Part shown: positions 1-63,328 of the stretch, piece after piece
Position numbering within the stretch: position 1 is the stretch's first letter
How the letters are laid out: each line of letters begins with the position of its first letter
NCBI GenBank assembly: GCA_963920635.1
Contig: OY987301.1
Coordinates: 55,248,560-55,312,559, forward strand
Direction: 5' to 3'
Length of the DNA: 64,000 nt
Origin: Pseudeuparius sepicola
Taxonomy: Eukaryota; Arthropoda; Insecta; Coleoptera; Anthribidae
Program-made: the position numbers and the translations under genes
The notes under the pieces: generated by a model
What the model was told of the DNA's origin: nothing
Seen by the model: the letters and a program-made list of their open reading frames with translations, nothing else
The model's database searches: none

Positions 1-140
1 GTAGTATACATAAACAGGTATTTCTATCTCCAATTTTAGGTTGCAATACCCAGAAAGGTCTTAAGTTACAAAACGTGCTATATGAAATTTTTATATTTGC
101 ACGACGTTTCAAAAAGTTCTTGTAGGGATTTTTTAGAGTA

Positions 141-970: not shown

Positions 971-1069
971 ACCTACGAAAATTGAATAGTATTATAGAAT
1001 GAAATAAATATGTACATATCTGTAATATAATTGGATCCTTTCTTTGAAACTGACCTACAACACAAGGTT

Positions 1070-1307
1070 CTCACTTCCGTTACATCCTACTCACCTCCGT
1101 TAGTACCCTTCTCAACGGAAGGGAGAATCACGGAGGTGAGGTATGTTCAAATAAATGGAGTTTTTATCGTTTAAAGTGTGGTTTAGGCTAAAATGGTACT
1201 ATGGGGGTGCAAAGTTAATCAGAAGTGATTTATTATCAATTATTAATTTAAATTATATTGTTGTTTATACCATTAATTTAATAAAACGGAGGTGAGATAC
1301 GACCTTG
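1070..1307. repeat. Possible small MITE with CACCTCCGTT / AACGGAGGTG ends
   Basis: The motif CTCACYTCCGTTA is present near 1070 and 1092, and its inverse ACGGAGGTGAG at 1130 and 1286, so the ends are imperfectly inverted with internal copies. No coding potential and no clear target duplication. It could equally be a local inverted-motif cluster. Confidence 0.3.
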
Positions 1308-1554
1308 ACAATAGAGGATCCGCTTACCTTCTGCAACGATACACCGTTCACTAGCACATCTGCAAGATAACTGACGCAAATTACTTGAATTTTCAAGAAC
1401 GAGCAACGGTTTAGAAATACGAAATTACAAATTTTAAGGGAATTTAAGTTGAAAATTGTTTTCTGTATAATAATATCGTACCCTGGCTTTCAAAAAACAC
1501 TTATTATTTTACTTAGTTTTTATGATAGTAAGTTGAGACATTAAAAGTTTGGAT
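1308..1554. other. No recognisable feature
   Basis: AT-rich sequence without open frames or repeats that I can name. Confidence 0.5.
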
Positions 1555-2857
1555 TTGATTGGAATGACCCATTTAAGAATACACGGTGTTTCAAGAGCAA
1601 ATGATGGACCAAAAGGACCTTAATACTGACAGATTCAAGAACACACGGTGTACCAAAATGCATGGGTGGGACCAAAGGACCTTAATAGTGACAGATTTAA
1701 TACAAGGTGGGCAAAATACGGCCAAAAAGGCCTAATTTCATCGCGTGACAGATTTAAGAATACAGTTAGATATTTACAAAAATCCTGAACTGAATAATAA
1801 AATCAATTTTTAAGTTAAAAGACAATCGACGACCTTCTAACCACAATTTTCAGTTTAATGGTGTGAAAGAGAAAATACATGTGACAGATTTAAGAATATA
1901 TGGTGTACCAAAATGCATGGGTGGGACAAAAGGACCTTAATGATTGTGATAGATTTAATACAAGGCGGACAAAATACGGTTAAAAACACCTAATTTCGAG
2001 GCGTAACAGAATTAAGTATACAGGGGCAAAAATTAACTGTCAAAACATGTATACAGGGTAAATCAGAAGCCAAAAGGACCTAATTTCGCGAGGTTTCATA
2101 ATTATTAAGAATAAGTACAGCGTGTCTCAAAGGAAACTGATTAAAAATTATTTATAAGATAGGACAAAAACTAAAGCTGAAACGACGTTATCTAAAGCCA
2201 AAAAGACCGTCACAATTTTTCTCAAATAGGTGGACAACAAAAAATTCATGTACAGGGTGTGACAAAAACAAAAAAGGCCTAATTTCGAGGCGTAACAGAA
2301 TTAATAAGAATAAGTATAGGGTGTTTCAAAAACAACTGATGGACTAAAAGGACATTATCAAATAATTCACATAAAAAAATAAAAGATCTAAAAATATTAC
2401 AATATTAAAAGAAGCAAATGAAGATGAAAATGAACTGTACAAAAGATTAATGAGTGGGTTGGTTTTTCGGTATTTAGAAAAAACGTTGGGCAAGGTAGAA
2501 TTAAGAGTCTTTTATGCTGCTACTTTATAAAAAAAGAGGTAAACGTGTTTTTGCTGAAGGATACAAAATAAATAGAAAAATACTTTGCTTTCGAAAAAAT
2601 TTTCACAAATGTAGCTAATGGAATCTAGGTCACGGGTAGCGGGGGATAAAATGACAAAATGCAGGTCTGTAAATTAAACATAAAAATTAACGATACGCGG
2701 TGTACCAAAATGCATGGGTGGGACCAAATGACCTTAATAGTGGCATATTTAATACAAGTCGGACAAAACACTTCCAAAAAGACCTAATTTCAGCACGTGA
2801 CAGATTTAAGAATACACGGTGTAACAAAATGCATGGGTGGGACAAAAGGACCTTAAT
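1555..2857. repeat. Degenerate interspersed repeat array, left part
   Basis: Phrases such as GTGACAGATTTAAGAATAC, CCAAAATGCATGGGTGGGAC and AAAGGACCTTAAT recur in the same order at about 1610-1740, 1880-2000, 2280-2350 and 2690-2857, with variable spacing and partial units between. No coding content. The same phrases resume, in the same orientation, just right of the giant palindrome (18328 onward), so this array is the target into which that element inserted. A unit at about 1935-1962 reads across the equivalent of the insertion point without interruption. Confidence 0.75.
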
Positions 2858-2863
2858 GACTGT
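2858..2863. repeat. 6-bp target site duplication GACTGT, left copy
   Basis: GACTGT directly abuts the left end of the giant palindrome. The identical 6-mer abuts its right end (18322-18327). The paralogous empty site in the array has this 6-mer once (as GATTGT). Confidence 0.75.
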
Positions 2864-2929
2864 AGTAGATAGGCTGTGGGGTTTCTGGCCCACTTTCCCC
2901 ATGTATTTCTTATGGGGGCAAAATCCTGC

Positions 2930-3300
2930 ACTTTTTTGACCAAACTTACCCCCTCCACTCCCACGCCACGCCCCCCGCCTAGACCCCGACCAATCAGAAC
3001 GCGCCGACTAGGGTCTGAACCCTGCGCTAGTCCGAGGGGTGCCGAAGATGCCCGAGGGGTATGACCCCAGCGCGAGGTCATTGTCAAACCGTCCGCCCGC
3101 GGCGACGGTTCGAGCCGCCCAGTGTCCAGCCGCGACCTTCGGCCGGAAGCAGACCGCGGACATGTCTCGACATGAAGGGAGACTCTTACCGACGGTCCCC
3201 CTGAATGTGGATTCCGAAATCTCGCGCCTTAGCAAATTGAAGTTCATGCATGACGTCACACCCCCTTTGACCTCGACTCACCGCGGCCGACAGGATTCTG
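2930..3300. promoter_or_regulatory. GC-rich, promoter-like segment near the outer end of the left arm
   Basis: A sharp CpG-rich block in an AT-rich arm. It contains a CCAAT box (2990-2994), a GC-box-like CGCCCCCCGCC context just before it, and a perfect CRE-type palindrome TGACGTCA at 3251-3258. The block has no coding signature. Its mirror copy sits at 17885-18255. That it drives transcription is inference; it could also be the binding region of the mobilising enzyme. Confidence 0.35.
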
Positions 3301-3810
3301 CCGACTCCACTCACTTTCTTTTTTATTTTACCAGGAATAATCGAAAAATCTGCGGCACATTCTAAGTGGTATAGTCTGCATTCAGTCTTAGCATGTTTTG
3401 ATACACTGATCTATATACGTTCCAGTAACCTACCAAATAATTTCTAGATACTAACATTGCAAATCTACAGCGCGAAAAATGCATCATTTTATACAAATAA
3501 AATATGTCGGAGCAAACGTTATTATTCGCTTGAAAACATTGCAGCGGGCAGCTGTCCTGATTGAATTTAGTTTCGAGAAAACAACATAGGTACCTACATC
3601 CCAAAAAAAATTCAACCTACTTTGCCCTGGAAAACATTTTTAACGACTAAAGTATCCAAAATACTTTAAAACACCCCTTCAAAAATACATTGTGAAGTTC
3701 TGATTGTATAAAATACTAGACTGTACACTTTTGAAAATAAAAACTAGGTGCCAAACCATCTATTGTTTACAAAATAACGCCCATGTTACTACAGCCGTTA
3801 ATAGATTACT

Positions 3811-3822
3811 AATAAAAAATAT
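3811..3822. repeat. 12-bp target site duplication of the Penelope-like insertion (left copy)
   Basis: AATAAAAAATAT occurs at 3811-3822 and again at 5117-5128. The mirror arm has the sequence once, without insert, near 17365-17376, so the empty site is directly visible. Confidence 0.85.
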
Positions 3823-3861
3823 TTTTTTTTTATATAAATCAATTTTCTTGACCGTAGAGTG

Positions 3862-3947
3862 TATTTTGTTATTAAAATTCGTGAGTATCGGTCATAATAT
3901 TTATTCTTTAAAATTTTATTTTACGACGTTTCGACAACTCAGTTGTC
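3862..3947. repeat. Terminal inverted repeat of the Penelope-like element (left); partner at 5035-5120
   Basis: About 86 bp, nearly identical in inverse orientation to 5035-5120. The left copy continues into the CTGATGA part of the hammerhead core; the right copy diverges just before it, so only the left one could be complete. Confidence 0.85.
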
Positions 3948-3955
3948 ATCATCAG
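3922..3955 (-). ncRNA. Hammerhead-ribozyme-like motif, Penelope type
   Basis: Minus strand: CTGATGA (3955-3949), stem II GACAAC-TGA-GTTGTC with one extra T, GAAA (3932-3929), then a minimal stem III AC-GUC-GU and a putative cleavage-site A (3922). This matches the consensus CUGANGA / GAAA / NUH of a minimal type I hammerhead, which Penelope-like elements are known to carry. Stem I pairing next to the core is weak, so activity may need a dimer or be lost. Confidence 0.6.
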
Positions 3956-4434
3956 GTATTTTTTTAATAATAAAAACAAATCTTTTCCACATACAGACAC
4001 ATTAAAAATAGATTTTTAAAAGCTAAAATGAAAAATTGAATTTTAGTAGGTACATATCAATGCTAAAAATTATTATACAAGTTGAAAAAAGTAATAATAC
4101 AATAAGGATATAAAAAGATTCTCTATATAACGGAACTTACCAAGAAAAGGCAGCTAAGTTTTTGTTTTAAAAATCATCGGGGTAGTAAAACATAAATTAT
4201 TTTTTTGTGTAGATTACTTATTTGTTTCTAGAACATTTTTGTTTAATTATATTCATTTCAAGAGGCAGGACGAGAGACCAAAGAATAGTTGGAAATATTT
4301 AAAATTTGAAGCAGGCCAGTCTGTTTTTTTAGGTTTCAAAGGTAAAAAATATTGTGTATACAGTATGGTGCTTTATGGGTTTGGATAAGAAAATAGATGG
4401 TTATTTGTTTGTAGTTGTAAATTACACATATTAT

Positions 4435-5043
4435 TTAAGAATTCATAATTAAATTATTGTAAATGTGAGACAACTGATTAGTATCAGAACGGAGGTTTAT
4501 TGTATTAGGATGTTTTTTGATATTTATCATTTCCAAAACATTTCTTTTATAAAAATCATTCTCAAAATCTAAAATTTTGGGATTGTTGAAATTAAAGGTA
4601 TGTAAATTGTCGAGTGCATGTTTACTAAGGGCAGTTGAGTGTTCATTGTTGTTTCTGATATTTAGTTTATGTTCATAAATTCTTTTTTCAAGGTATTGTT
4701 TAGTTTGGCCGACATATGATGCATTGCAATCAGTACAGTCAATCTTATAAATTAAATTAGAACATTTATTTGTTTCAATAGGGGGTTTTAGTTTAGTAAA
4801 AAAATTTTTTGAGAAGTTATTAGGTTTGTGTGCAAGTGTAATACCATTGTTGTGAAAAATCTTTGTTAATTTTTCTGAGACGCCATTAATATAAGGTATG
4901 GAAACATATTTATTGTTTTGCATTGGTAAATTGTTATGAGGTAGTTGTGATTGGGATTTAATTATATGATACCGTTTGTTAATAAATTTATTATAAAAAG
5001 AAAAAGGATAATTATTATTGTGTAGGATATTTCGGACAACTGA
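4435..5043 (-). CDS. GIY-YIG endonuclease tail of a Penelope-like element (partial ORF)
   Basis: An uninterrupted minus-strand frame runs from the inner edge of the right terminal repeat (about 5043) to a TAA/TGA stop at 4435; an internal ATG at 4923 starts the last 162 residues. It contains a Cys-rich lead-in (NLIYKIDCTDCNASYVGQT) that places the GIY-like and YVG parts of the nuclease core, followed by the conserved Arg/Glu-His region (RIYEHK). This domain nicks DNA for target-primed reverse transcription in Penelope-like elements. The upstream RT is absent because the copy is 5' truncated, so there is no authentic start. The frame is open, which fits a recent insertion. Confidence 0.8.
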   Translation of the reverse strand, partial: SVVRNILHNNNYPFSFYNKFINKRYHIIKSQSQLPHNNLPMQNNKYVSIPYINGVSEKLTKIFHNNGITLAHKPNNFSKNFFTKLKPPIETNKCSNLIYKIDCTDCNASYVGQTKQYLEKRIYEHKLNIRNNNEHSTALSKHALDNLHTFNFNNPKILDFENDFYKRNVLEMINIKKHPNTINLRSDTNQLSHIYNNLIMNS

Positions 5044-5529
5044 GTTGTCGAAACGTCGTAAAATAAAATTTTAAAGAATAAATATTATGACCGATACTCA
5101 CGAATTTTAATAACAAAATAAAAAATATAGCAGACAACGCAGTTTATTTAACGTTCAGTGCCTATAAAAAACGGCTATAAAAAAAAATCCGAGAAATTTC
5201 TGTATATTAACCAGGTGTTTGTTGTTGCCTTAAGGCAAAAACATACGTCTGAAAAGTTGAACCTATTTTGTGGTAGAATTTGGAATCTGATGATAAGTAA
5301 AAAACCATTATGCAATAAAATACAAAAGTAGTATCCGAAACGGCTTGAACCGCCGACGCTCGAGATCTGCTGGCGCAGCTTCCAGTACAATGGGCTCATT
5401 TTCAGTCGAAACACGCAAATATCTCCAAAAAACCTGAGAAAATGGCCATCACAAACAAAATCTTAATTTTGTTTTCACCCAGCAAGAATATTATCGAAGG
5501 GATATGTGCCAGGAATAGGGAATTATATT

Positions 5530-7070
5530 AAAAGTTCAGCCTACTTTGCCCTGAAAAATCGTATATTTTTAACTACTAATGTATTGAAAATATTCTAAAC
5601 AGATTTCGAAAATAGTTTAATATCAATAAATCACGAATTTTTGATAATATAAGATGTAAACTATAGACTGAAAAATTGTTGCTTAAACAACATTGAAACT
5701 ACCCTGATAAAAATATGCATCCATGGTTGAAACTACACTCTGTTACCTTAAGGTATAAAATCAGACACATATCTCCCAAAAAGTTCAACCTACTTTGCCC
5801 TGAACAAATCGAACAACAGAGGTACCTATTCATCGCTCACAAAACCAATACCAACGCCGAGGAAACTACACTTACAAATGTTTAAAAAATGTCCACCGTG
5901 ATCGCTCGACAAAAAATCGTGCAAAGTGGCTACGGCAAAAGGCTTGACCTTTGTCCTTAGTAGAATCTAAAAAAAAACTGTAAATCATACGTACAGTAGA
6001 ATCTGCTAAAGTAAAATCCAATCCAGGTGTCAAAAAATCAATTAGATACAAGTCCGACAGTAAATCCTTCTTGTATTATTATTAAATAAGTTGACGTCAG
6101 AGAATACCCGTCGGTGGCACCGATAGCGTGTCCGGCCAAAAATGCGTTCTGCTAGGCGTGAAAATGTATTATACTATCGACAGGAGTCTACTCAAAATAC
6201 CTAATTGTTCAGTATCCGTATTCAGAAAAATAAAAAAAGTTGTAGGTACCCCTCACTTGATGAAAAAGTATACAAAACTACAATGATAAAAAATTTGGAT
6301 TTTTAGCTCTTGTAATAGCTCGATGCCGATTGAAACTACACTACTAAAAATGTTTAAAAAATTACCATCCCACGTGATCGCTCGACAAAAACAAAACGTG
6401 CAAAGTGGCTACTGCTCGAGGTTTGACCTCGATAGAATCTAAAATCCCCGGTACAGTACGGATGAAAATTTCAAACCAGGCATGATCGACATGGATACAC
6501 CTTCAAAGTAAAAAAAAAACTTGTCGGTCAACTGTTCAACCCCGACATTTTCTTGATTTCTAGGAATAAAAAGAAATACTGCGATTGTAAGTCCAAAGCT
6601 ATTTACGCTATGAAATTCGTTTAAAATGCGAATGATAATTTGCCGCATTAAAACCAGGCGTGAATATTCAACATACGTCCCTAAGAAGTTCAACCAATTT
6701 TACCCTGGAAATAGAACATTTTTAATGACTAAAATATCGAACATAGGTATATTTTAAACACCCTTCGAAATATAGTATAAATCATGATTTTTTTTTGATA
6801 ATGTGGAAAGCTAAACTGAAAATTGTTGCTAGAGGTTCTATTAAAGTAAAAACCGGGGTGCCAAAAAATCAACTATTATTAGAAAATACGCCGATGTCAT
6901 AATATAGCCATAATAACGTGTCCGGTCAAAAATGCGTTCTGCTTAATAAGGCGTAAAAAAAAATCCATGACGGGGCTTAGATAAATAAATAAAGTTTGAT
7001 GTATGCAAAAAGTATAGACTAAATTTTCGTATAGCCCGCGTGATCGCTCGAGGTGGCGGTATCCTCTGGA
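5530..7070. repeat. Dispersed internal sub-repeats of the arm
   Basis: Short phrases recur here: TTCAACCTACTTTGCCCTG-like (also at 3611, then 5540, 5790, 6690), CGTGATCGCTCGACAAAA-like (5897, 6371, 7035), GCAAAGTGGCTAC (5927, 6398) and GTGTCCGGCCAAAAATGCG (6130, 6918). The arm therefore looks built from old, diverged duplications with no coding signal. Mirror copies are in the right arm at about 15420-16960. Confidence 0.6.
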
Positions 7071-9267
7071 CTAGAAAATATCATATCGGCTCAATCTCCA
7101 AACATTTTCATTTTGAATTATACGTTTTCATTGATGATAGGTATAGCAAGAAAATTGGACTGGACTCGATATGAGAGACATTAATCTAACTTTCACTAAA
7201 CTGCACGTACTACTTAGAGGGTTGTAAGCCGTTTTAATAAAAGCAACAGACTTGCTTAAAATTCATGGCTAAACGTTAACATAATGTCATACATACATGC
7301 GGCACGCAAAATATTTAATAAAGAATAGATATATGAGCTCAAACATGTTGATAAAAAAATATATTCATTTCTGGCGATTTAGTTTACCAGTTATCATTTA
7401 AAAACAAAACCTGGTCCCAATATTCAGTGAAAATAATAATTAAAAACTTTGAACCTTATAAACCACCACTAAATAGCGAGTCGGAAATGAGTAAAAATTA
7501 TATATAAATATATTATTTTGATATAAATTATGGCCGAAACTGAATTTATTGGGGTGAAGATGCAAGGAAATATTTTTAGCTAGGAAAAAGTAATGCAATT
7601 ATCATAGGTACTGGTTGCAGAACACGTTGTCAGTTTTGCAAGGATTTTTGATACAAATATGATTGCTAACGTTTAATTTGTTTACCCCATTTACGAAAAT
7701 GATAACAAAATTGGATCAGACAAGATATTTTTTCGAAGTATATTTTTTAAGCACAGGGTGCCACCACCGGTTTTACGATATAGGTTTCAAAATGCGACGC
7801 GAATACATAAAAAAATACCCTAGAGATAAGAAAACAAAATACAACTCACCGAAATATTCTTGATGATGTATAAAAAGAAATCAGGTTACATCTAATGCCC
7901 CAGACAGTAAAATAAACATCCCCGAGCTGTCAGATATAACCAAACATCATTTTTCCAACGGCACAGTCATTTTCACGGGAAAAACAACCAGTAACCGTTC
8001 AAATTCCATAGATAGGTACTGCCGTAATCCAAAATTTCACTGAACTACGCATATCTATTATACTGAAGTAGGTACTGATACACTTCCATCTTTCCAAAGA
8101 AAAACAAACACGAAACTCAGACTTTTCATATATTATTACAACGCCTCGATAGAGTCTTTATCTGTGGCCACGACCGAGAATCTACTGAAACAAGTGACTT
8201 TGTGCGACGCATAGGACGTGAAAAGTGCCGAGTTGGTTTTATTGAACAATGAAACTTATACCTACGTATATTTAAAATAAATGAGAAATATGCCAGAGAT
8301 GTGAAACCTAATTGTGTTGCAAGTTTGAGGGTCCAAAAAAATATTGGCTTTAATTTTTTAAGGTGAGAAACACATCTAACAGCCAGTTTGGAAATATACA
8401 AGGCAAAAAAAGTAGTGATGTGGCTGTCCCATTTTATGTTTTATACAGGTTTGGTTATTTTAGAATAGTTGTTCAATAGACCGAGACAACATCATAAACG
8501 CTTCTCGTTAGAACAGAATCTGATGAAAAGAAAAATTCCATCTGGGTCAAGCTACTACATAACCAAAATAAAAAATACTGAACGTTACAAAATTTAAAAA
8601 AATCATATTTTCAACGGATTTTTATCCTCTGAAAATTGTTCTTGTGTAAAATTCAGTTTCACTGGGTCAAGCTAGGTGGTAACTATATAACCAAAATAAA
8701 AAATACTGAACGTTATAAAATTAAAAAAATCATATTTTCAAGGGATTTTTGTCCTCTGAAAATTGGTTTTGTGTAAATTCAGTTTCAATAAGTTACTAAT
8801 TGGGATAATAGGAAAAAAATCTTAAGAATCTCTTATAGAATTCTGAGACAACGACCCTGAGAGTAAATATCGTACAAAAATCTTTGTGCGTTGACTTTCA
8901 ACTCAATTTAATAATTAGGTTTAATAATGACAATTTTCTCGATTATCTAGAATCAAAAATATTGCGAGTGGCAATTCACAATTTTCTAGATATTATGTGA
9001 AGCCTTATTATTGCGTCGTAAGTTAGAGGATTCAAAAATATTGCCTTAAATTGTTTAGTAAATGCGATTAAGATATGTTTAGTTTATCAACAGTTAATTG
9101 TAACAGCTTATTACCTTACAAGCGTAAACTCTTTAAAATTTTTCTTTAGACAAAAAGTTATAGTTTAATAATGGTCAGTTGGATTCCTTTTGAATCATGT
9201 TTGCATATTACCTACAAGGAGTTACAACCTCAAAACATAGAAATCGCTCATTTTAAACCGATTTAAT
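7071..9267. other. AT-rich central part of the left arm, no genes seen
   Basis: Open frames here (7663-7863, 8126-8401) are short and resemble no family, and each is duplicated in mirror image. Two near-identical sub-segments of about 110 bp around 8540-8640 and 8650-8770 form a local direct repeat. Confidence 0.5.
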
Positions 9268-9620
9268 AAAAATTTCACCAAAACAATACTTTCACTCATA
9301 TGATACACTTCTGATTAATAAAAAAGGCACCATAGGTAGTAATAATAAGATATTCAACGGAATTTTTATCGACTGTTTGCCCATTTTGCTAGCTTTTGGG
9401 GGTATTCCTTGATATTTTAGACGGATAAAAAATGAATAATAAAAATTAAAAATAAAAATTTCACCAAAACAATACTTTCACTCATATAATACACTTCTGA
9501 TTAATAAAAAAGGTACCATAGGTAGTAGTAATAAGATATTCAACGGAATTTTTATCGGCTGTTTGCCCATTTTGCTAGCTTTTGGGGGTATTCCTTGATA
9601 TTTTACACGGATAAAAATGA
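9268..9620. repeat. Two tandem copies of an about 180-bp unit
   Basis: The segment starting AAAATTTCACCAAAACAATA is present at about 9272 and again at about 9453, each followed by the same 150 bp with few changes. Mirror copies lie at about 12870-13230. Confidence 0.75.
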
Positions 9621-10079
9621 ATAACATTGAGTTCCCTAACTAAAATACAAAACGCACTGTTGACTTTACTTACGTGAATAGTAAGCCTATAATACGTATC
9701 GAAAGCAGAGAAATATTCAGGTCAAGAAAAAAGTGGCCTCATTTACAAGTTTGTAAATCAAAAACTACCTATTGGCTTTTAATTTTGATGAGAAAATTCG
9801 TCTAATTCGTAAGTCATATAAATGAAACATCATGAAACATATACGAGTAATTGAACAAATGCTATCTTAGTTCTATAGGCAGAAAGGTACTATAGGTAGT
9901 AATAGATTTGGGATCAAAAGACAACCTATTAGCTTTTAAATTTGTTAAGAAAATACGTCTAATGAAATTGAAAGTAGTACCTAGGTTTTGGTTAACATTT
10001 CGTTAACGCGTTGATGAATAAGAATGCAAGTAGAAAGTAGACAGAATTTCCAAAAAAAAAAAACGGTGACTGACCAAAC

Positions 10080-11250
10080 AAGTTATTATAAAAAGTTGCT
10101 CGGGAGACCGATGTAACCTAGAAAACGCCTTTCCTTCGAATAGAAAGTAAAAAAAGTTGCAAAATGGGACTTAGACGAATATTTGATGCAAGTGGAAAGT
10201 AGGCAGAATTTTCGAAAATCGGGGACGGATAAAAAATTATTAAGTTGATCGGGAGGTTGAGATAACCTATGAAACGCCTTTGATTCCAATAGAATCTGAC
10301 AAAAAATTCCAAGAAAATTTTAGACGACTGTTTGCAAGTGAAAAGTATACAGAATTTTTTCGAAAAAACTGCGACTGACCAAAAAAAAAATAGATATTAG
10401 AAAATTTTGCTCGGGAGATCGAGGTAACATAGAAAACGCCTTTCATCCGAATATAATCTGAAATAAGTTCCGAGATGGGACTTAGACGAATGTTTGATGC
10501 AAGTGGAAAGTAGACCGAATTCCCGGAAAACGCCTTTCGTTCGAATATACGGGAGGTCGAGGTAACCTAGGAAAAACGCCTTTTATTCGAACAGAATCTG
10601 ACAAAAAAAATCCAAGACGAATGTTTGTTGCAATTGCAAGGTAGACAGAATTTTAGAAAAACGGCAACTGATCAAAAAAATATATATTCGAAAATTTTGG
10701 TCGGGAGCCCGAGGAAACCTAGAAAACGCCTTTCGTTCGAACAGAATGCGACAAAAAAAATCGAAGACGGTATGGTAGTTGGACGAATGTTTGACGCAAG
10801 TTAAAAGTAGACAGAATATTAAAAAACGAGAACAGACCAAATAGTTATTAGAAGAAGTGGCTCGGGAGGTCGAGGTTACCTAGGAAATGCCTTTCGTTCG
10901 AACAGAATCCGACAAAAAAAAATCCAAGACGAATGTTTGATGCAATTGAAAGGTAGACAGAATTTTAGAAAAACGGCAACTGATCAAAAAATATATATAT
11001 TCGAAAATTTTGGTCGGGAGCCCGAGGAAACCTAGAAAACGACTTTCGTTCGAACAGAATGCGACAAAAAAAAATCGAAGACGGTATGGTAGTTGGACGA
11101 ATGTTTGACGCAAGTTAAATGTAGACAGAATATTAAAAAACGAGAACAGACCAAATAGTTATTAGAAGAAGTGGCTCGGGAGGTCGAGGTTACCTAGGAA
11201 ATGCCTTTCGTTCGAACAGAATCCGACAAAAAAAATTCCAAGACATGACT
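10080..11250. repeat. Tandem repeat, about 312-bp units, next to the palindrome axis
   Basis: Units start with CTCGGGAGGTCGAGGT and contain CCTTTCGTTCGAACAGAAT and GTAGACAGAATTTTAGAAAA. Equivalent points are at 10641 and 10953 (312 bp apart) and at 10861 and 11175 (314 bp apart). More diverged copies reach back to 10080. The spacer of the palindrome is simply one more partial unit, so the arms meet inside this tandem array. Confidence 0.8.
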
Positions 11251-11305
11251 TAGAAAAATATTAATTTGGTGCAGATGAAAAAGATACAGCATTTCCAAAA
11301 AAACT
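11188..11305. other. 118-bp spacer (loop) of the giant palindrome
   Basis: This is the only part of the element without a mirror partner. Its first 50 bp continue the tandem unit of the left arm; the rest is unique. It fits a junction formed by template switching between two repeat units. Confidence 0.8.
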
Positions 11306-14300
11306 TCGACCTCCCGAGCCACTTCTTCTAATAACTATTTGGTCTGTTCTCGTTTTTTAATATTCTGTCTACATTTAACTTGCGTCAAACATTCGTCCAA
11401 CTACCATACCGTCTTCGATTTTTTTTTGTCGCATTCTGTTCGAACGAAAGTCGTTTTCTAGGTTTCCTCGGGCTCCCGACCAAAATTTTCGAATATATAT
11501 ATTTTTTGATCAGTTGCCGTTTTTCTAAAATTCTGTCTACCTTTCAATTGCATCAAACATTCGTCTTGGATTTTTTTTTGTCGGATTCTGTTCGAACGAA
11601 AGGCATTTCCTAGGTAACCTCGACCTCCCGAGCCACTTCTTCTAATAACTATTTGGTCTGTTCTCGTTTTTTAATATTCTGTCTACTTTTAACTTGCGTC
11701 AAACATTCGTCCAACTACCATACCGTCTTCGATTTTTTTTGTCGCATTCTGTTCGAACGAAAGGCGTTTTCTAGGTTTCCTCGGGCTCCCGACCAAAATT
11801 TTCGAATATATATTTTTTTGATCAGTTGCCGTTTTTCTAAAATTCTGTCTACCTTGCAATTGCAACAAACATTCGTCTTGGATTTTTTTTGTCAGATTCT
11901 GTTCGAATAAAAGGCGTTTTTCCTAGGTTACCTCGACCTCCCGTATATTCGAACGAAAGGCGTTTTCCGGGAATTCGGTCTACTTTCCACTTGCATCAAA
12001 CATTCGTCTAAGTCCCATCTCGGAACTTATTTCAGATTATATTCGGATGAAAGGCGTTTTCTATGTTACCTCGATCTCCCGAGCAAAATTTTCTAATATC
12101 TATTTTTTTTTGGTCAGTCGCAGTTTTTTCGAAAAAATTCTGTATACTTTTCACTTGCAAACAGTCGTCTAAAATTTTCTTGGAATTTTTTGTCAGATTC
12201 TATTGGAATCAAAGGCGTTTCATAGGTTATCTCAACCTCCCGATCAACTTAATAATTTTTTATCCGTCCCCGATTTTCGAAAATTCTGCCTACTTTCCAC
12301 TTGCATCAAATATTCGTCTAAGTCCCATTTTGCAACTTTTTTTACTTTCTATTCGAAGGAAAGGCGTTTTCTAGGTTACATCGGTCTCCCGAGCAACTTT
12401 TTATAATAACTTGTTTGGTCAGTCACCGTTTTTTTTTTTGGAAATTCTGTCTACTTTCTACTTGCATTCTTATTCATCAACGCGTTAACGAAATGTTAAC
12501 CAAAACCTAGGTACTACTTTCAATTTCATTAGACGTATTTTCTTAACAAATTTAAAAGCTAATAGGTTGTCTTTTGATCCCAAATCTATTACTACCTATA
12601 GTACCTTTCTGCCTATAGAACTAAGATAGCATTTGTTCAATTACTCGTATATGTTTCATGATGTTTCATTTATATGACTTACGAATTAGACGAATTTTCT
12701 CATCAAAATTAAAAGCCAATAGGTAGTTTTTGATTTACAAACTTGTAAATGAGGCCACTTTTTTCTTGACCTGAATATTTCTCTGCTTTCGATACGTATT
12801 ATAGGCTTACTATTCACGTAAGTAAAGTCAACAGTGCGTTTTGTATTTTAGTTAGGGAACTCAATGTTATTCATTTTTATCCGTGTAAAATATCAAGGAA
12901 TACCCCCAAAAGCTAGCAAAATGGGCAAACAGCCGATAAAAATTCCGTTGAATATCTTATTACTACTACCTATGGTGCCTTTTTTATTAATCAGAAGTGT
13001 ATTATATGAGTGAAAGTATTGTTTTGGTGAAATTTTTATTTTTAATTTTTATTATTCATTTTTTATCCGTCTAAAATATCAAGGAATACCCCCAAAAGCT
13101 AGCAAAATGGGCAAACAGTCGATAAAAATTCCGTTGAATATCTTATTATTACTACCTATGGTGCCTTTTTTATTAATCAGAAGTGTATCATATGAGTGAA
13201 AGTATTGTTTTGGTGAAATTTTTATTAAATCGGTTTAAAATGAGCGATTTCTATGTTTTGAGGTTGTAACTCCTTGTAGGTAATATGCAAACATGATTCA
13301 AAAGGAATCCAACTGACCATTATTAAACTATAACTTTTTGTCTAAAGAAAAATTTTAAAGAGTTTACGCTTGTAAGGTAATAAGCTGTTACAATTAACTG
13401 TTGATAAACTAAACATATCTTAATCGCATTTACTAAACAATTTAAGGCAATATTTTTGAATCCTCTAACTTACGACGCAATAATAAGGCTTCACATAATA
13501 TCTAGAAAATTGTGAATTGCCACTCGCAATATTTTTGATTCTAGATAATCGAGAAAATTGTCATTATTAAACCTAATTATTAAATTGAGTTGAAAGTCAA
13601 CGCACAAAGATTTTTGTACGATATTTACTCTCAGGGTCGTTGTCTCAGAATTCTATAAGAGATTCTTAAGATTTTTTTCCTATTATCCCAATTAGTAACT
13701 TATTGAAACTGAATTTACACAAAACCAATTTTCAGAGGACAAAAATCCCTTGAAAATATGATTTTTTTAATTTTATAACGTTCAGTATTTTTTATTTTGG
13801 TTATATAGTTACCACCTAGCTTGACCCAGTGAAACTGAATTTTACACAAGAACAATTTTCAGAGGATAAAAATCCGTTGAAAATATGATTTTTTTAAATT
13901 TTGTAACGTTCAGTATTTTTTATTTTGGTTATGTAGTAGCTTGACCCAGATGGAATTTTTCTTTTCATCAGATTCTGTTCTAACGAGAAGCGTTTATGAT
14001 GTTGTCTCGGTCTATTGAACAACTATTCTAAAATAACCAAACCTGTATAAAACATAAAATGGGACAGCCACATCACTACTTTTTTTGCCTTGTATATTTC
14101 CAAACTGGCTGTTAGATGTGTTTCTCACCTTAAAAAATTAAAGCCAATATTTTTTTGGACCCTCAAACTTGCAACACAATTAGGTTTCACATCTCTGGCA
14201 TATTTCTCATTTATTTTAAATATACGTAGGTATAAGTTTCATTGTTCAATAAAACCAACTCGGCACTTTTCACGTCCTATGCGTCGCACAAAGTCACTTG

Positions 14301-17300
14301 TTTCAGTAGATTCTCGGTCGTGGCCACAGATAAAGACTCTATCGAGGCGTTGTAATAATATATGAAAAGTCTGAGTTTCGTGTTTGTTTTTCTTTGGAAA
14401 GATGGAAGTGTATCAGTACCTACTTCAGTATAATAGATATGCGTAGTTCAGTGAAATTTTGGATTACGGCAGTACCTATCTATGGAATTTGAACGGTTAC
14501 TGGTTGTTTTTCCCGTGAAAATGACTGTGCCGTTGGAAAAATGATGTTTGGTTATATCTGACAGCTCGGGGATGTTTATTTTACTGTCTGGGGCATTAGA
14601 TGTAACCTGATTTCTTTTTATACATCATCAAGAATATTTCGGTGAGTTGTATTTTGTTTTCTTATCTCTAGGGTATTTTTTTATGTATTCGCGTCGCATT
14701 TTGAAACCTATATCGTAAAACCGGTGGTGGCACCCTGTGCTTAAAAAATATACTTCGAAAAAATATCTTGTCTGATCCAATTTTGTTATCATTTTCGTAA
14801 ATGGGGTAAACAAATTAAACGTTAGCAATCATATTTGTATCAAAAATCCTTGCAAAACTGACAACGTGTTCTGCAACCAGTACCTATGATAATTGCATTA
14901 CTTTTTCCTAGCTAAAAATATTTCCTTGCATCTTCACCCCAATAAATTCAGTTTCGGCCATAATTTATATCAAAATAATATATTTATATATAATTTTTAC
15001 TCATTTCCGACTCGCTATTTAGTGGTGGTTTATAAGGTTCAAAGTTTTTAATTATTATTTTCACTGAATATTGGGACCAGGTTTTGTTTTTAAATGATAA
15101 CTGGTAAACTAAATCGCCAGAAATGAATATATTTTTTTATCAACATGTTTGAGCTCATATATCTATTCTTTATTAAATATTTTGCGTGCCGCATGTATGT
15201 ATGACATTATGTTAACGTTTAGCCATGAATTTTAAGCAAGTCTGTTGCTTTTATTAAAACGGCTTACAACCCTCTAAGTAGTACGTGCAGTTTAGTGAAA
15301 GTTAGATTAATGTCTCTCATATCGAGTCCAGTCCAATTTTCTTGCTATACCTATCATCAATGAAAACGTATAATTCAAAATGAAAATGTTTGGAGATTGA
15401 GCCGATATGATATTTTCTAGTCCAGAGGATACCGCCACCTCGAGCGATCACGCGGGCTATACGAAAATTTAGTCTATACTTTTTGCATACATCAAACTTT
15501 ATTTATTTATCTAAGCCCCGTCATGGATTTTTTTTTACGCCTTATTAAGCAGAACGCATTTTTGACCGGACACGTTATTATGGCTATATTATGACATCGG
15601 CGTATTTTCTAATAATAGTTGATTTTTTGGCACCCCGGTTTTTACTTTAATAGAACCTCTAGCAACAATTTTCAGTTTAGCTTTCCACATTATCAAAAAA
15701 AAATCATGATTTATACTATATTTCGAAGGGTGTTTAAAATATACCTATGTTCGATATTTTAGTCATTAAAAATGTTCTATTTCCAGGGTAAAATTGGTTG
15801 AACTTCTTAGGGACGTATGTTGAATATTCACGCCTGGTTTTAATGCGGCAAATTATCATTCGCATTTTAAACGAATTTCATAGCGTAAATAGCTTTGGAC
15901 TTACAATCGCAGTATTTCTTTTTATTCCTAGAAATCAAGAAAATGTCGGGGTTGAACAGTTGACCGACAAGTTTTTTTTTTACTTTGAAGGTGTATCCAT
16001 GTCGATCATGCCTGGTTTGAAATTTTCATCCGTACTGTACCGGGGATTTTAGATTCTATCGAGGTCAAACCTCGAGCAGTAGCCACTTTGCACGTTTTGT
16101 TTTTGTCGAGCGATCACGTGGGATGGTCATTTTTTAAACATTTTTAGTAGTGTAGTTTCAATCGGCATCGAGCTATTACAAGAGCTAAAAATCCAAATTT
16201 TTTATCATTGTAATTTTGTATACTTTTTCATCAAGTGAGGGGTACCTACAACTTTTTTTATTTTTCTGAATACGGATACTGAACAATTAGGTATTTTGAG
16301 TAGACTCCTGTCGATAGTATAATACATTTTCACGCCTAGCAGAACGCATTTTTGGCCAGACACGCTATCGGTGCCACCGACGGGTATTCTCTGACGTCAA
16401 CTTATTTAATAATAATACAAGAAGGATTTACTGTCGGACTTGTATCTAATTGATTTTTTGACACCTGGATTGGATTTTACTTTAGCAGATTCTACTGTAG
16501 GTATGATTTACAGTTTTTTTTTAGATTCTACTAAGGACAAAGGTCAAGCCTTTTGCCGTAGCCACTTTGCACGATTTTTTGTCGAGCGATCACGGTGGAC
16601 ATTTTTTAAACATTTGTAAGTGTAGTTTCCTCGGCGTTGGTATTGGTTTTGTGAGCGATGAATAGGTACCTCTGTTGTTCGATTTGTTCAGGGCAAAGTA
16701 GGTTGAACTTTTTGGGAGATATGTGTCTGATTTTATACCTTAAGGTAACAGAGTGTAGTTTCAACCATGGATGCATATTTTTATCAGGGTAGTTTCAATG
16801 TTGTTTAAGCAACAATTTTTCAGTCTATAGTTTACATCTTATATTATCAAAAATTCGTGATTTATTGATATTAAACTATTTTCGAAATCTGTTTAGAATA
16901 TTTTCAATACATTAGTAGTTAAAAATATACGATTTTTCAGGGCAAAGTAGGCTGAACTTTTAATATAATTCCCTATTCCTGGCACATATCCCTTCGATAA
17001 TATTCTTGCTGGGTGAAAACAAAATTAAGATTTTGTTTGTGATGGCCATTTTCTCAGGTTTTTTGGAGATATTTGCGTGTTTCGACTGAAAATGAGCCCA
17101 TTGTACTGGAAGCTGCGCCAGCAGATCTCGAGCGTCGGCGTTTCAAGCCGTTTCGGATACTACTTTTGTATTTTATTGGATAATGGTTTTTTACTTATCA
17201 TCAGATTCCAAATTCTACCACAAAATAGGTTCAACTTTTCAGACGTATGTTTTTGCCTTAAGGCAACAACAAACACCTGGTTAATATACAGAAATTTCTC

Positions 17301-18321
17301 GGATTTTTTTTTATAGCCGTTTTTTATAGGCACTGAACGTTAAATAAACTGCGTTGTCTGCTATATTTTTTATTAGTAATCTATTAACGGCTGTAGTAAC
17401 ATGGGCGTTATTTTGTAAACAATAGATGGTTTGGCACCTAGTTTTTATTTTCAAAAGTGTACAGTCTAGTATTTTATACAATCAGAACTTCACAATGTAT
17501 TTTTGAAGGGGTGTTTTAAAGTATTTTGGATACTTTAGTCGTTAAAAATGTTTTCCAGGGCAAAGTAGGTTGAATTTTTTTTGGGATGTAGGTACCTATG
17601 TTGTTTTCTCGAAACTAAATTCAATCAGGACAGCTGCCCGCTGCAATGTTTTCAAGCGAATAATAACGTTTGCTCCGACATATTTTATTTGTATAAAATG
17701 ATGCATTTTTCGCGCTGTAGATTTGCAATGTTAGTATCTAGAAATTATTTGGTAGGTTACTGGAACGTATATAGATCAGTGTATCAAAACATGCTAAGAC
17801 TGAATGCAGACTATACCACTTAGAATGTGCCGCAGATTTTTCGATTATTCCTGGTAAAATAAAAAAGAAAGTGAGTGGAGTCGGCAGAATCCTGTCGGCC
17901 GCGGTGAGTCGAGGTCAAAGGGGGTGTGACGTCATGCATGAACTTCAATTTGCTAAGGCGCGAGATTTCGGAATCCACATTCAGGGGGACCGTCGGTAAG
18001 AGTCTCCCTTCATGTCGAGACATGTCCGCGGTCTGCTTCCGGCCGAAGGTCGCGGCTGGACACTGGGCGGCTCGAACCGTCGCCGCGGGCGGACGGTTTG
18101 ACAATGACCTCGCGCTGGGGTCATACCCCTCGGGCATCTTCGGCACCCCTCGGACTAGCGCAGGGTTCAGACCCTAGTCGGCGCGTTCTGATTGGTCGGG
18201 GTCTAGGCGGGGGGCGTGGCGTGGGAGTGGAGGGGGTAAGTTTGGTCAAAAAAGTGCAGGATTTTGCCCCCATAAGAAATACATGGGGAAAGTGGGCCAG
18301 AAACCCCACAGCCTATCTACT
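11306..18321 (-). repeat. Right arm of the giant inverted repeat
   Basis: Reverse complement of 2864-11187 minus the Penelope insertion. Small ORFs mirror those of the left arm with very few substitutions (for example two residue changes in the frame at 17077-17316). It holds no gene of its own. The internal repeats and GC-rich end block listed for the left arm are present here in inverse order. Confidence 0.9.
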
Positions 18322-18327
18322 GACTGT
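18322..18327. repeat. 6-bp target site duplication GACTGT, right copy
   Basis: Identical to 2858-2863; the array sequence GATAGATTTAATAC then continues as in the uninterrupted unit at about 1948-1962. Confidence 0.75.
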
Positions 18328-18905
18328 GATAGATTTAATACCAGGCGGACAAAATACGATCGAAAAGACCTAATTTCATAACGTGACAGATTTAATACCG
18401 ATTGTATGACAAAAGCAATGGAATTAAAGCCAAAAAGGCCGTCACAATTTTTTAAGTTAAAACAAAAACGATGCAAAACGGACTTGTAGCCGCAATTTAA
18501 AAACGTCAGCTTCCGGTCTCCATTTCCAGTCCGAGGAAAACACGAATTTGACATAAAAATTTTTAAGCCTTATCGCGGGAGATTGGTGCTAGGTAGAACG
18601 ATTCTGACGCCTAAATAATGATCAGGGGATCGTGGTGAATCCAAAAACGTCAACTTCCGGTCTCCATTTCCGGCCCGAGAAAAATGCCTTTCCGGTACCT
18701 CGTTGGACTCGTCTCGCCGTCGGGAACACGAATTTAGCATAAAAAAGCTTAAAAGTCTTATCGCGGGAGATCGGAGCTAGGTAGAAATATTCTGACACTT
18801 AAATAATGATCAGGGGATCGAGCAGAATCCAAAAACGTCAAATTCCGGTGCCCATTTCCGGTGTGAGGAAAATATGTTCTTGTGACACTTCGTTGGAATC
18901 ATCTT
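18328..18905. repeat. Repeat array, right part, with three units of a second repeat
   Basis: The first about 100 bp continue the array seen left of the palindrome. From about 18499 a different unit appears three times (AAAAACGTCA starts at 18500, 18643 and 18831), each with a CCATTTCC tract. The first two units also hold CGCGGGAGATYGG and AATAATGATCAGGGGATCG. No coding content. Confidence 0.7.
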
Positions 18906-20452
18906 GAAATATAATAATCTTAAATAAAATAAAAAATATATAATGTTCGGGTGAGAATAACATGGATAATGATCCCACAAATTTAAGTTTGTTTTGCATA
19001 ATGGTAATGAAAGAGTCTTAATAATTTAGCCTAGCGACACTTGAAGAACTAAGAACAAGTAACATACTCATTCACGCATGTGCCGATCTTCGATGCACAT
19101 AGGGAAACATGTGAGAGAGAAAAAATGTATAGATTGGATGAGGATAAATTGCAGGCGATTTATACAGGGTGATTTATTCCTAACTACATTGATATTAACA
19201 GTGGGTAGGGAAAAATACCCTGAACGTGAAATCACAATTAAAAAAATTCCAACTTTTTTTTTAAAGCCGAAATTATTTTTTTTCTAAACCTCATTTTTAC
19301 CTGTTTGACCCCTTATTTTCGACTGCCACTGACTTTTATTCCATCCTGAATGAGGGATCCGACGACGCTTGCCGCCATGCGCGTTAGCTCTGTTGCCAAA
19401 TGTACGAAATATTCATAAATTTAAAGGAATATTTTCATAACAATATTAATTGTATTGTAGGCGAATGTTCTGCAAAATGCATGCGAAAATTATGAACAAA
19501 TGTTAACGCTTACCTCTTGTAACGGTTAGTTTTAACCGCAGACACCTTAAAATAAATTAAACTACTGCTTATATGACCCTTTTGGATGCTTTATTAAGTA
19601 CTCAACTATGGGGCTTACATGATTTCGTAGACCTCGACACCACCGAGGATGATCTTTTTTTTGATAGAACAAAGTTCAATCACATTCACTTGGCGCACTA
19701 ATTTTTCCGCGCACTGCTTTACTGATAATCCTTTTGATTGCACCGAGACGCTCTTAGAGATGTCTTCTGTGGGTTCCGCTTCCTCTGAAATAAGGACATC
19801 AACATTAGCCAACATATCTAGGGTCTAGTTGCTTGAACTTACCGTAAGTAAAGTAATCTCCGCTTAGGTCGTATCCAACAAGAACTACACACTTTTCTCA
19901 GTCCTTTCTTTCTCGTTATGTTTTCTTGTCATAGTTAGGGACTCATACCTATTTGCAATAGAATCTAATTTTTTGGAACAGTTTCAGCATTTTCCAATCA
20001 CTGTTTGTTGATACTGTGTGCGTCTCGTGCTTCTGATAGAAAAAATAACGGTAAAAGTACCCCACGGCGTACACAGCTCCCGTTTATTTTTAAATTTTGG
20101 CTCCTTCCTATTTTCGAGATCCCTGAACACGAGTCTGACCTTAGTTCTTTTTTGCACGCTCGTAGTTTCCGAGAAAATGAATTTTCAAATTTCCTATTCA
20201 CATCTCACTTTTCACGTCGATATTTGTGGTTATAATCCGGATGACTTTTTACTGTACACAGCTCAAACTGATCACCAGACTATTTTGCACCTTTTGCAAT
20301 ATCGGCACATTCGGCACTTCGCGAAAACCCGCGGTAAAACAAGATAAATGTCCAAGAATTAGATACCTATGCATTGTTTTCAGCGCGGTTGCCTATCCGC
20401 TAGGTCTTTCTGTTCTGTTTTCTGTTTGACGCCTGAAGTTAGCAACTTTTAA
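18906..20452. other. No confident gene; unassigned repeat-like sequence
   Basis: A CAGGGTG-type insect repeat motif occurs near 19164. The minus-strand frame at 19615-19815 (66 codons) follows an acceptor-like CCCTAG and could be an exon, but I recognise no domain. Frames at 20005-20429 overlap on both strands and look like chance frames in a repeat. Confidence 0.4.
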
Positions 20453-21067: not shown

Positions 21068-21235
21068 TTAAATCAGCGCCATTCAAACGTCAGGGGTCAA
21101 AAACGCCGAAAAGAAGACAGCGCCATCGATTTTCCGCCCATGAGCCCGTTCCACCATCGGTCAAAATTAAAGTCCATGTACCGATTTTATTTTTTCTAAG
21201 GGTGTTTCTGGAATTTTGTGGGATACCGTTCCACA

Positions 21236-21930: not shown

Positions 21931-21933
21931 AAG

Positions 21934-22188: not shown

Positions 22189-22226
22189 ACGAAAATGTTT
22201 TTTTTTATTTATTTAACTTAAATCTG

Positions 22227-22670: not shown

Positions 22671-22765
22671 TTTGACACGACCACGAAAAAAGAAGAAAAA
22701 CTTTATGATTAAATCTGTTACTACAAAAACCATTCATAGATAATTAGTAACAATCAAATAAAGAA

Positions 22766-24058: not shown

Positions 24059-25110
24059 ATGCCACTAACATCGCAAGATCAAATTGCAAATGCGCAACGC
24101 GCAAAGAAAATTAGAGAACTCACACGCTCGATTAGAAAAAAATATACTGCGTTAACATTAGGGAGACTTGAAGAAGATGATTCGCTCGAGAAAGTTTTTA
24201 AGCCAGTAACAAAATCTTTAGAAAAAATGATAAATCCAAGAATGAAAATGATATCAAACTAGAACCTAAAGAAGACGATGAGGATGATAATATTGATTTA
24301 GATAAACAAACAAAATTAATACAATATGGAATTGAAGATAGAATCGACAAAAAGCTTGATGCGCTGAAGTTGAGCATTAATAAATTACAGGGATTTACAC
24401 TACCCGAGAGTTATTGGGAAAATTCTAATCAACCCAAGCCGGGAAACGTTTTTGAAGAAGATGATGATAATGATATGTCGAATTACCCTCAGGATGTTAT
24501 AGACGAATACCTAGAAACTTATCTGGAAATACTAAGACCATATATCCTTGAACACGAGGACAAGTCATCTAAAATTGATAAAGTATACGGACCTGTTTAC
24601 GATGCTTCTAAATCAAAATGGATACTGGGAAGAAAATTTATTTACTTTGATAAGCCTACAGGAGACATACTCGTTGACGGGCTGTATCGGTTTCCTGGTA
24701 CAGAAGGACTTTACAATTTAATTTTTTATGATGATCCACAGTGCAACCTTGAAGACAGAAAAAATTATAAAAAGATTTTAACTTTAACTAGTGTCCACCT
24801 CAACTCAGTGGGTAAATTAAAAGGTTCAAATCGATTTAAATATAGTGATATTATCAAGCCTCTAGTTAGAGGTGAACAAGAAACTGAAATACCTAAACCT
24901 AAAACACGTTCACAATCGACGGCAAGTGGTACCGGCATGAACCTTACCTACAATAGAAAGCCTCTCGAATTCGTTTATTGGGATGATGTAAATGAGTTGA
25001 TAGATAGATTAAGGCTCCTCGTAGCCTCTAAACATGCTGGAAACACCTCTCACGATAATGAAATTGTTGCTATTATCAATGAGTTAACAGAAGCTAACAT
25101 TATTCGCTAA
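24059..25110 (+). pseudogene. Maverick-associated conserved protein of unknown function, one frameshift
   Basis: Starts with ATG at 24059, 28 bp after the ATPase stop. The first 67 codons are basic and helical; the frame then shifts near 24235 into an acidic linker and continues as the open frame that ends at 25110. The C-terminal part holds the conserved block YWDDVNELIDRLRLLVASK and a second block around YGPVYDASKSKWILGRKF. I associate this with an uncharacterised family (possibly the one labelled DUF8207) found beside Maverick genes in insects; that name is from memory. Apart from the one frameshift the gene is well preserved. Confidence 0.6.
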
Positions 25111-25151: not shown

Positions 25152-25633
25152 ATGAGTGTCAATAAGTGTGGACAATACTCTAATTCTAAAATTTATTCAT
25201 CACATTTACCTTCATCGATCCATACGAGTAACACTATTTTCGAGTTTACTCCGAATGGTGATATAGATGTATAAGAATTTGAAGATTAATAATCTTCTTG
25301 AAGAAGAAGATTAATAATCTTCAAATTCCAAACGAAAATAGTGACGCAACAAACAAGCGATATATTGATCAAACTTTTAATGAAATAAGAACCAAAATTT
25401 TCGATTATATTCACAGACAGTTACATAAAATAACTACTGCTACGGTACATGAAAATACACTTATCAAAAATTTTAAGGAAGAATTGCACAGTGAAGTAAA
25501 TAGACTACAATTGTGTATCGAAGAGAAAGACAAAAAGATAGTGGAACTATCGAATAAAATTGATAATGTAAAACCATTTTACAAATATAACAATGAAAAC
25601 ACAGCACAGCAAAGAAAAAATTCAGTTGGTTAA
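25152..25633 (+). pseudogene. Small Maverick structural-type protein, interrupted
   Basis: ATG at 25152 opens a frame (begins MSVNKCGQYS) that stops at 25274-25276. After a short disturbed stretch containing two inverse AGATTAATAATCTTC motifs, a second frame (25298-25633) continues with ATNKRYIDQTFNEIRTKIFD and a coiled-coil region rich in Glu and Lys. The layout resembles small coiled-coil proteins placed just upstream of the integrase in insect Mavericks, perhaps virion fibre-like. The function is inferred from position only. Confidence 0.45.
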
Positions 25634-27415
25634 GGAACTGCACACACCGGCTAGAAAAAATTATTCTCGTCGGCGAACTATTATCAAAGGATTAGACGCT
25701 CTCTGGCAAGCTGATCTTGCGCAAATGGATCAGTATGCGACAGTTAATAAAAATTTTAAATTCATATTGGTAGTAATTGATTGTTTTTCAAAATAGGTTT
25801 GGTGTGAACCGCTGAAATCAAAGTCTGGGGAAGAGGTTACGAAAGCTTTTACAAATATTCTGAAAAGATCTCACAAACGACAACCTCGAAATCTACAAAC
25901 TGACCTAGGAAAGGAATTTTACAATACGCATTTTAAGAAACTCATGAAGCAATTTAATATAAATAATTATAGTTCATTTAGCGTTAAAAAAGCTGCAATT
26001 GTGGAAAGAGTTATACGCACCCTGAAAGAGCAAATGTTCAAATATTTTAGTTTGAATGGTAAATATAAATGGATTGATATGTTACTTTCAATAGTCGACG
26101 AATATAATAATAGGAGACATTGTACTATACAGCGTGTCCATTTACTATTCCCTTCTTCGATTGTGGCTATACTTTTAAGGATAAAAAAATCGGTTGGGGC
26201 GATCCAAATAAGGGAAGACAGAATACAAGCAGCAAATGAAATATTTACCAAATGTCAAACTAGAAACAAAACCATGACCACCTATGAGTTCTCCTAAAAC
26301 TTTTAACTTTTTAATTTAATATTCTATTTATGCAGGTGTAGTAGGTATACAAAAATATGGTAAACTACAGATTGTAACTGGTACTAACGCTTTTTTGATA
26401 TGCAGCTTTTTAAATAAGTACAAGTTTGATTCTTGAGTAATTTGCATGTATGTAATAAGTAAAAAAGTTGCAAATTTTCTGTTTATACTGGATTTTTGAA
26501 AAACTGCTAGAGATAAAGGTACTGTATTAGGTATCAAATTAAAGCTGAATGAATGCTCTATTCAATAGAAATGTTAGATATAGAGTGTTCCATTTGAAAA
26601 AAAAAATAGTAAATTAAATTTGAAAATGTCGGAGTTTTGGCGGAAAAAGTGAAACATCCTGTACAAAAATTTTCAACATGGTTCTTAGTCATTAATAAAA
26701 TGGTTAAGTGTAAATCCACAACCAAAGTTTCAAGAGAAAAAATTAAGCCGCAAGAAAAATATAGCAATATTAATGAAGGGTTGGTATTTAGCAAAAAATA
26801 CATTAAAAATATTATAACTTGGCAACGCCGCAGATGGAAGCGGAAATAATTTAGGGATGTATACTATACTTTGATAGGCTTTATTTGCGATAAAAAAATC
26901 TGGTCATTCCATTTAAAAAAATATATTTTTTTGTCGCCACACTTTTTTGGAACACCCTGTATATACCAAACTAATTTTAAAATGTGCTCCATCTTTCCTT
27001 ATTTGGATCCCCCGAACCGATTTTTTTTATAGTTAAAAGTATAGCCACAATCGAAGAAGGGAATAGTAAATGGACACTTAAAGATTTTCAACAAACCAAA
27101 ATTTAATGTGGGTGATATGGTGAGAATTAGTAAATCTAAACATATTTTCGAAAAGGGTTATATTCCTAACTGGACAACAGAAGTCTTTAAAATTATTAAA
27201 ATACAAATAACTAATCCGGTAACATATGTACTCGAAGATGTAAGAGGAAATCCTATAAAAGGCGGATTCTATACAGAGGAATTACAAAAAACGGTAGATC
27301 CTGATATTTACTTAGTAGAGAGGGTACTAATTAGGAGGGGGGAAAAGTGTTGGTGCGCTGGCTCGGTCTAGATAAAATATACGACTCATGGATAAGTACC
27401 ACAAATGTTCTGTAG
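25600..27415 (+). pseudogene. Maverick retroviral-type integrase, split by an insertion
   Basis: Integrase core signature: LWQADLAQM (first Asp) near 25710, QTDLGKEF (second Asp) near 25905, IVERVIRTLKEQM (Glu) near 25998. An in-frame TAG at 25794-25796 interrupts the core and the DNA is cut by a foreign element at 26134-27077. Right of it the C-terminal domain resumes (27090-27371; FNVGDMVRISKSKH then a chromodomain-like end), with a final frameshift in a G-run near 27340 before the stop at 27415. The enzyme would insert the element and create 6-bp duplications. Catalytic residues survive but the gene is dead. Confidence 0.85.
26134..27077. mobile_element. TIR element inside the integrase gene, 944 bp
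   Basis: The ends are inverse over 45 perfect bp (26134-26178 with 27033-27077; GTGTCCATTTACTATTCCC at the left), then diverge gradually to about 85 bp. Short ORFs inside overlap on both strands and match no transposase. No clear target duplication is seen, so a snap-back duplication is a possible alternative. It splits a coding frame, so it is younger than the Maverick insertion. Confidence 0.6.
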
Positions 27416-63326: not shown

Positions 63327-63328
63327 TA

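Follow-up and report, generated by a model that had tools for sequence, protein, structure and literature searches.

A 14-kb foldback element with 7-kb inverted arms and termini one base from a Maverick motif in the genome of Pseudeuparius sepicola

Foldback elements are a known class of transposons, defined by terminal inverted repeats (TIRs) that fill nearly the whole element. The Drosophila elements FB, Galileo and Tetris share this structure as well as tandem arrays within the TIRs and a lack of conserved open reading frames (ORFs). In the available text of the paper on Tetris (PMC4079207), a foldback of Drosophila virilis, these features are given for that element, which has 220-bp arrays in its TIRs and target duplications of 8-10 bp. 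The same text traces foldbacks to a few cut-and-paste superfamilies, Mutator above all, and its authors regard most foldbacks as apparent relatives of Mutator, with exceptions. Here we describe a foldback located at positions 2864-18321 of a stretch of 64,000 nt from Pseudeuparius sepicola (contig OY987301.1, 55,248,560-55,312,559), hereafter the window, whose coordinates are used throughout. Its size, its 6-bp target duplication (8-10 bp in Tetris) and its ends, one base off the Maverick motif AGTAGT, are unusual for a foldback.

Counting an insertion that came later and lies in one arm only, the element is 15,458 bp long; without it, 14,152 bp. It is made up of the following parts.

2864..11187, plus strand: left arm, 7,018 bp without the insertion
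11306..18321, minus strand: right arm, 7,016 bp, insertion absent
11188..11305, no strand: centre between the arms, 118 bp, with weak residual symmetry at its rim
2864..3363, plus strand: outer end of the left arm, rich in GC (57%)
10025..11244, plus strand: inner end of the left arm, a degenerate tandem array with units of about 150-160 and 314 bp
11289..12467, minus strand: inner array of the right arm, the mirror of that in the left
3811..5128, minus strand: one-sided insertion of 1,306 bp in the left arm, from the arm comparison, likely a truncated Penelope-type element

With the insertion set aside, the arms aligned with 7,009 identities, 7 mismatches and 2 one-base gap positions (99.87%), and their outermost 959 bp are identical. 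The termini are exactly mirrored at 2864 and 18321 (AGTAGATAGG...CCTATCTACT), with AGTAGA//TCTACT as terminal hexamers, that is, AG..CT ends. Inverted repeats make up nearly the entire element (7,018 + 7,016 of 14,152 bp), as in other foldbacks, and leave only the 118-bp centre. These results confirmed what a preliminary description, made from the sequence alone, had reported, namely a 15.5-kb foldback with 7-kb inverted arms, mirrored AG...CT ends and the limits given above. Its statement that the element fits no standard class was wrong, since TIRs filling nearly the whole element are what defines foldbacks such as Tetris (PMC4079207, available text).

The GC-rich outer end gives way to a GC content of 25-38% in the following 500-bp steps (left half, insertion included). 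At the other extremity of the arms, the 118-bp length first reported for the centre is correct, but the similarity of the arms fades gradually into it instead of stopping sharply: past GGCTCGGGAGGTCGA, GTT and GGAAATGC are still common to both sides and in register. This fading symmetry looks as if an older short inverted repeat may have served as a folding point. Furthermore, degenerate direct repeats are present in the arms, the array occupying their inner 1.2 kb. Stretches of the array within one arm are about 81-83% identical to one another over 0.9 kb, and single repeat families match at 61-99% identity (the tool lists only matches of at least 60%). Since repeats within an arm reach about 81-83% whereas the two arms are 99.87% identical, an arm with an already diverged array was duplicated whole and inverted, or the arms have since been kept alike by gene conversion.

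We observed that the mirrored region is bounded on both sides by a short direct duplication, and that a neighbouring unit of the host repeat lacks the element.

2858..2863, no strand: left copy of the target duplication, GACTGT, from the flank comparison
18322..18327, no strand: right copy of the target duplication, GACTGT, from the flank comparison
1878..2015, plus strand: host-repeat sister unit in which the site is empty

Directly beyond the termini the two sides no longer agree at the first base, which is T on the left and, in mirrored reading, C on the right; the mirrored region therefore ends there. A 7-bp duplication, TGACTGT, can alternatively be read if the right end is shortened by one base, in which case the ends are no longer mirrored. 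As the eighth base outward differs, the duplication is 6 bp long, 7 bp at most. For the empty site, the left and right flanks were joined with one GACTGT and aligned to the sister units. The unit at 1878-2015 matched the joined flanks at 122 of 138 positions without a gap and has a single GATTGT at the same place, while two further units (in the stretches 1600-1800 and 2660-2830) showed 117 and 105 identities, 3 bases being gapped at the site. Therefore, the host array runs across the element in one orientation. Because the 6-bp duplication flanks a site that is unoccupied in the sister repeat, the whole palindrome was very probably inserted as a single unit. On all these points the preliminary description held: GACTGT stands exactly and directly outside both mirrored termini, the host repeat keeps its orientation on both sides, a sister unit (from 1878) reads through the site without a gap, and insertion of the palindrome as a unit is well supported by the ends, the duplication and the gapless sister site.

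The insertion in the left arm is flanked by a 12-bp duplication of its own, AATAAAAAATAT (3811-3822 and 5117-5128), and carries inverted ends of 86 bp (3862-3947 and 5035-5120). On its minus strand, an ORF at 4435-5070 matched the GIY-YIG family (Pfam PF01541, E 9.4e-05; the score of 23.1 bits lies just above the cut-off, 22.6), and we take the insertion to be a truncated Penelope-type retroelement. It very probably arrived after the palindrome had formed, because the mirror arm retains the uninserted site. The element had been described as having no recognised gene; this is true of the element proper but not of the whole span, which includes the GIY-YIG ORF of the later insertion.

To describe the coding content of the element, Pfam was scanned with three forward and three reverse frames of 5121-11191 and with six frames of 2864-3823, thus covering the left arm outside the insertion. 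In these frames no family scored as high as its Pfam cut-off, and no gene for a protein-primed polymerase, an integrase or a capsid protein was found. ORFs of the arm are no longer than expected: the longest, in the approximately joined arm, has 121 amino acids, and among the longest ORFs of 200 first-order Markov sequences the median was 110 and the highest value 200. An ORF that spans the left end served as a tracer in a protein collection; it had 68 candidates there, with no match at E<=10. Rfam gave no match at gathering score in 1-19500, and a tRNA search of the 64-kb window found none. The terminal 100 bp folded no better than their shuffles (z -0.39; 66 of 200 shuffles at least as good).

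Among groups with 6-bp target duplications, the available part of a further paper names Polinton, IS3EU and GingerRoot, along with some long terminal repeat (LTR) elements that make duplications of 3-6 bp (PMC10045372). Vertebrate Mavericks, or Polintons, most frequently end in (AGT)2//(ACT)2, carry polymerase, integrase and capsid genes and, when intact, measure 12,723-24,620 bp with TIRs of 46-1,447 bp and 6-bp duplications, as far as the accessible text reports (PMC8097293). The foldback of P. sepicola has in common with them the 6-bp duplication and its length, since 14.15 kb is within the 12.7-24.6 kb spanned by intact vertebrate copies. Its ends come close to the Maverick terminal motifs (AGT)2 or (AG)3 without an exact match: AGTAGA has 5 of the 6 bases of AGTAGT, a motif that is vertebrate-derived and may not be that of insect Mavericks. 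It differs in its 7-kb TIRs and in the absence of the above genes from the frames scanned. In total, at most one mismatch separates 57 of the 4,096 hexamers from one or another of three published Maverick motifs (with ACACAC used as the third); for the first two motifs, 979 positions on the two strands of the window (0.76%) come equally close. Judged by its ends and duplication, on which the assignment rests, mobilisation of the Maverick type would be the best single assignment.

Two gene relics lie downstream of the element, and neither is part of it.

24059..25107, plus strand: relic of a DUF8207-type gene in two pieces, named from the precomputed label of its relatives
25608..27412, plus strand: broken relic of a Maverick-like integrase (rve), in pieces 25608-26168 and 27057-27412

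The integrase relic, 7.3 kb downstream of the element, is interrupted by about 0.9 kb of inserted DNA whose inverted ends measure 56 bp (26134-26189 and 27022-27077). The relatives found were 10 predicted proteins of 105-288 amino acids, some of them from short contigs and possibly fragments; 9 contained rve, and one bore the name 'transposase InsO family protein'. All 4 of the relatives scanned showed a chromodomain at E<0.01, one of them above the curated cut-off. Maverick integrases combine rve and a chromodomain in a protein outside a polyprotein. The relic suggests that Maverick-like DNA has been present in the genome; it supplies no link to the element, with which it has no sequence in common. 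For the DUF8207 relic, 20 of 21 relatives bear the precomputed label PF26634, and the two matches with organism names are from the beetles Psylliodes chrysocephalus and Brassicogethes aeneus. A Pfam scan of the window ORF and of one relative (P0002) returned no family. The DUF8207 relic could possibly derive from a helper lineage. Six frames of 19000-27402 contained no Pfam family besides rve, and a search for TIRs of the integrase relic in 20000-33000 returned 10 inverted pairs of at least 25 nt, all local and at most 832 nt apart. Patterns for relatives of the DUF8207 and integrase relics matched 25 and 5 stretches of viral_contigs, respectively, none of which was confirmed.

We consider it an even question whether this 14,152-bp foldback, which has no recognised gene of its own and was very probably inserted as a unit, owes its mobilisation to a Maverick/Polinton-type integrase working in trans on its AGTAGA//TCTACT ends. 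Such an integrase, if it worked as a DDE integrase, would bind the mirrored ends and join both to a target site whose strands were cut 6 bp apart. More speculatively, protein-primed strand displacement could free single strands, and a freed strand might fold back at the short inverted array near the inner end and copy its own arm. The product of this single step would be a symmetric dimer with the same terminus at both ends. Adenoviruses have symmetric defective genomes. In snap-back defective genomes of viruses (adeno-associated virus, or AAV, and adenovirus), an inverted dimer of one terminus likewise arises by fold-back of a strand, as described for AAV in the available text of PMC8235507. 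The element could then be the Maverick counterpart of a defective interfering genome, a snap-back symmetric dimer kept at genome size (14.15 kb) for copying and perhaps packaging, and then integrated by a Maverick integrase, an extension that we offer tentatively and consider rather unlikely. Snap-back viral genomes replicate, whereas the present element is seen only as a copy integrated in the genome, and its replication is presumed.

Mobilisation by a Maverick integrase had already been guessed at in the preliminary description. The guess is supported by the 6-bp duplication, the near-motif ends, the different ends of IS3EU and GingerRoot and the presence of an integrase relic in the window, but it is unproven and several observations weigh against it. 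Outside its insertion, the left arm contained no Maverick gene in six frames and, at E<=0.1, no Pfam family in the whole-frame scans, and a snap-back copy of the end of a coding Maverick should bear coding relics, none of which was found. An arm ORF scanned singly (8126-8440) gave only a weak DIE2_ALG10 match below cut-off (E 0.0077, 16 bits against 27), which we took as chance. The element shares no sequence with the rest of the window, integrase relic included, and the Maverick-like label of that relic, as opposed to an LTR integrase, is provisional. As described above, a 7-bp duplication with unmirrored ends can also be read, and gene conversion in an old palindrome would equally give a high identity between the arms. 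Finally, only this one copy was seen, and neither exact patterns in viral_contigs and genome_contigs nor blastn in phages gave another. There, a 21-base pattern in genome_contigs, a 30-base inner pattern in viral_contigs and the outermost 959 bp compared with phages by blastn all found nothing, an absence that says little because these collections are poor for an insect transposon. A 16-base end pattern occurred in three stretches of viral_contigs, which we rejected as further copies and attributed to chance, since blastn of the element against them gave no match (E<=1e-3).

An ordinary cut-and-paste foldback, of Mutator, P/Galileo, hAT or unknown type, whose TIRs grew by transposase loss and elongation and whose Maverick-like ends arose by chance, is quite possible, though we lean away from it. 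Galileo and FB have target duplications of 7-9 bp, and hAT lineages with 6-bp duplications exist. The 7-bp duplication readable in one alignment would agree with the length known for Galileo, but it spoils an otherwise exact mirror of the ends. An arm without Maverick sequence speaks for this explanation, as do its tandem arrays, which are known in foldbacks such as Tetris, most foldbacks seeming to belong to Mutator with exceptions (PMC4079207, available text). In contrast, the 8-10 bp duplications of the Mutator-type Tetris given there differ from the 6-bp duplication of this element with 7-kb arms, in which the eighth base outward is already unlike, and the terminal hexamer, with 5 of 6 bases of the Maverick motif, also speaks against it.

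A segmental inverted duplication of host DNA, produced by repair or template switching without a transposase and flanked by GACTGT copies by chance, appears very improbable to us. Further local palindromes in the window (48623-49694 and 62936-63331) indicate that inverted duplication occurs here, but a 6-bp direct duplication stands exactly at the mirrored ends, for which the chance is about 1 in 4,096 with equal bases, and the host repeat runs on across the site. We give scarcely any credence to an element of IS3EU or GingerRoot type with unusual ends: both groups are alike in having 6-bp duplications, but their ends are TA..TA, or occasionally TG..CA for GingerRoot, in the available part of PMC10045372. 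The element ends in AG..CT. Least probable of all is an assembly artefact, since, although fold-back reads can create false palindromes and the window has, in another place, an exact tandem duplication of 1,045 bp that may point to problems in the assembly, a folded read would mirror the flank as well, whereas here the mirror ends at the duplication, the 1,306-bp insertion with its own duplication is present in one arm only, and the arms differ at 9 further positions.

Several other features of the window were observed. The palindrome at 48623-49694 measures 1,072 bp (95.7%) and lies within an LTR-type pol region; 49693-49936 is a third, forward copy of its centre (like 49088-49316), giving a forward-inverted-forward order as in template switching. 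The palindrome at 62936-63331 is a spacerless self-palindrome of 396 bp (94.4%), whose two strands have open frames for almost identical protein sequences. The exact tandem duplication of 1,045 bp (59307-61396, 100%) is located in the pol region of an LTR element and is either very recent or an assembly duplication. A Tc1/IS630-like element at 38891-40840, with TIRs of 374 bp (99.7%) and an open ORF of 374 amino acids with a DDE_3 match, looks recent and is perhaps autonomous. An ORF at 56219-57367 matches a Baculovirus F-like envelope protein (PF12259, E 9.8e-12) in an apparent LTR element on the minus strand. Lastly, 22763-22954 is a tandem array of 11/22-bp units, GAAACGTCAAC(GAAACGTTGAC).

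In the titles and abstract openings of the papers listed by the literature searches, we found no foldback assigned to Mavericks, and no paper of the collection searched contained phrases for non-autonomous Polintons or Mavericks. Palindromes with 7-kb arms may seed chromosome inversions and yield long double-stranded RNA. If the element was indeed copied and integrated by a Maverick, it would record Maverick replication as a molecular fossil and, within the literature searched, be the first foldback transposon assigned to Mavericks. A foldback with Maverick-type ends would add a replicating, virus-like lineage to the cut-and-paste superfamilies from which foldbacks are known, and would suggest a one-step origin of giant TIRs.

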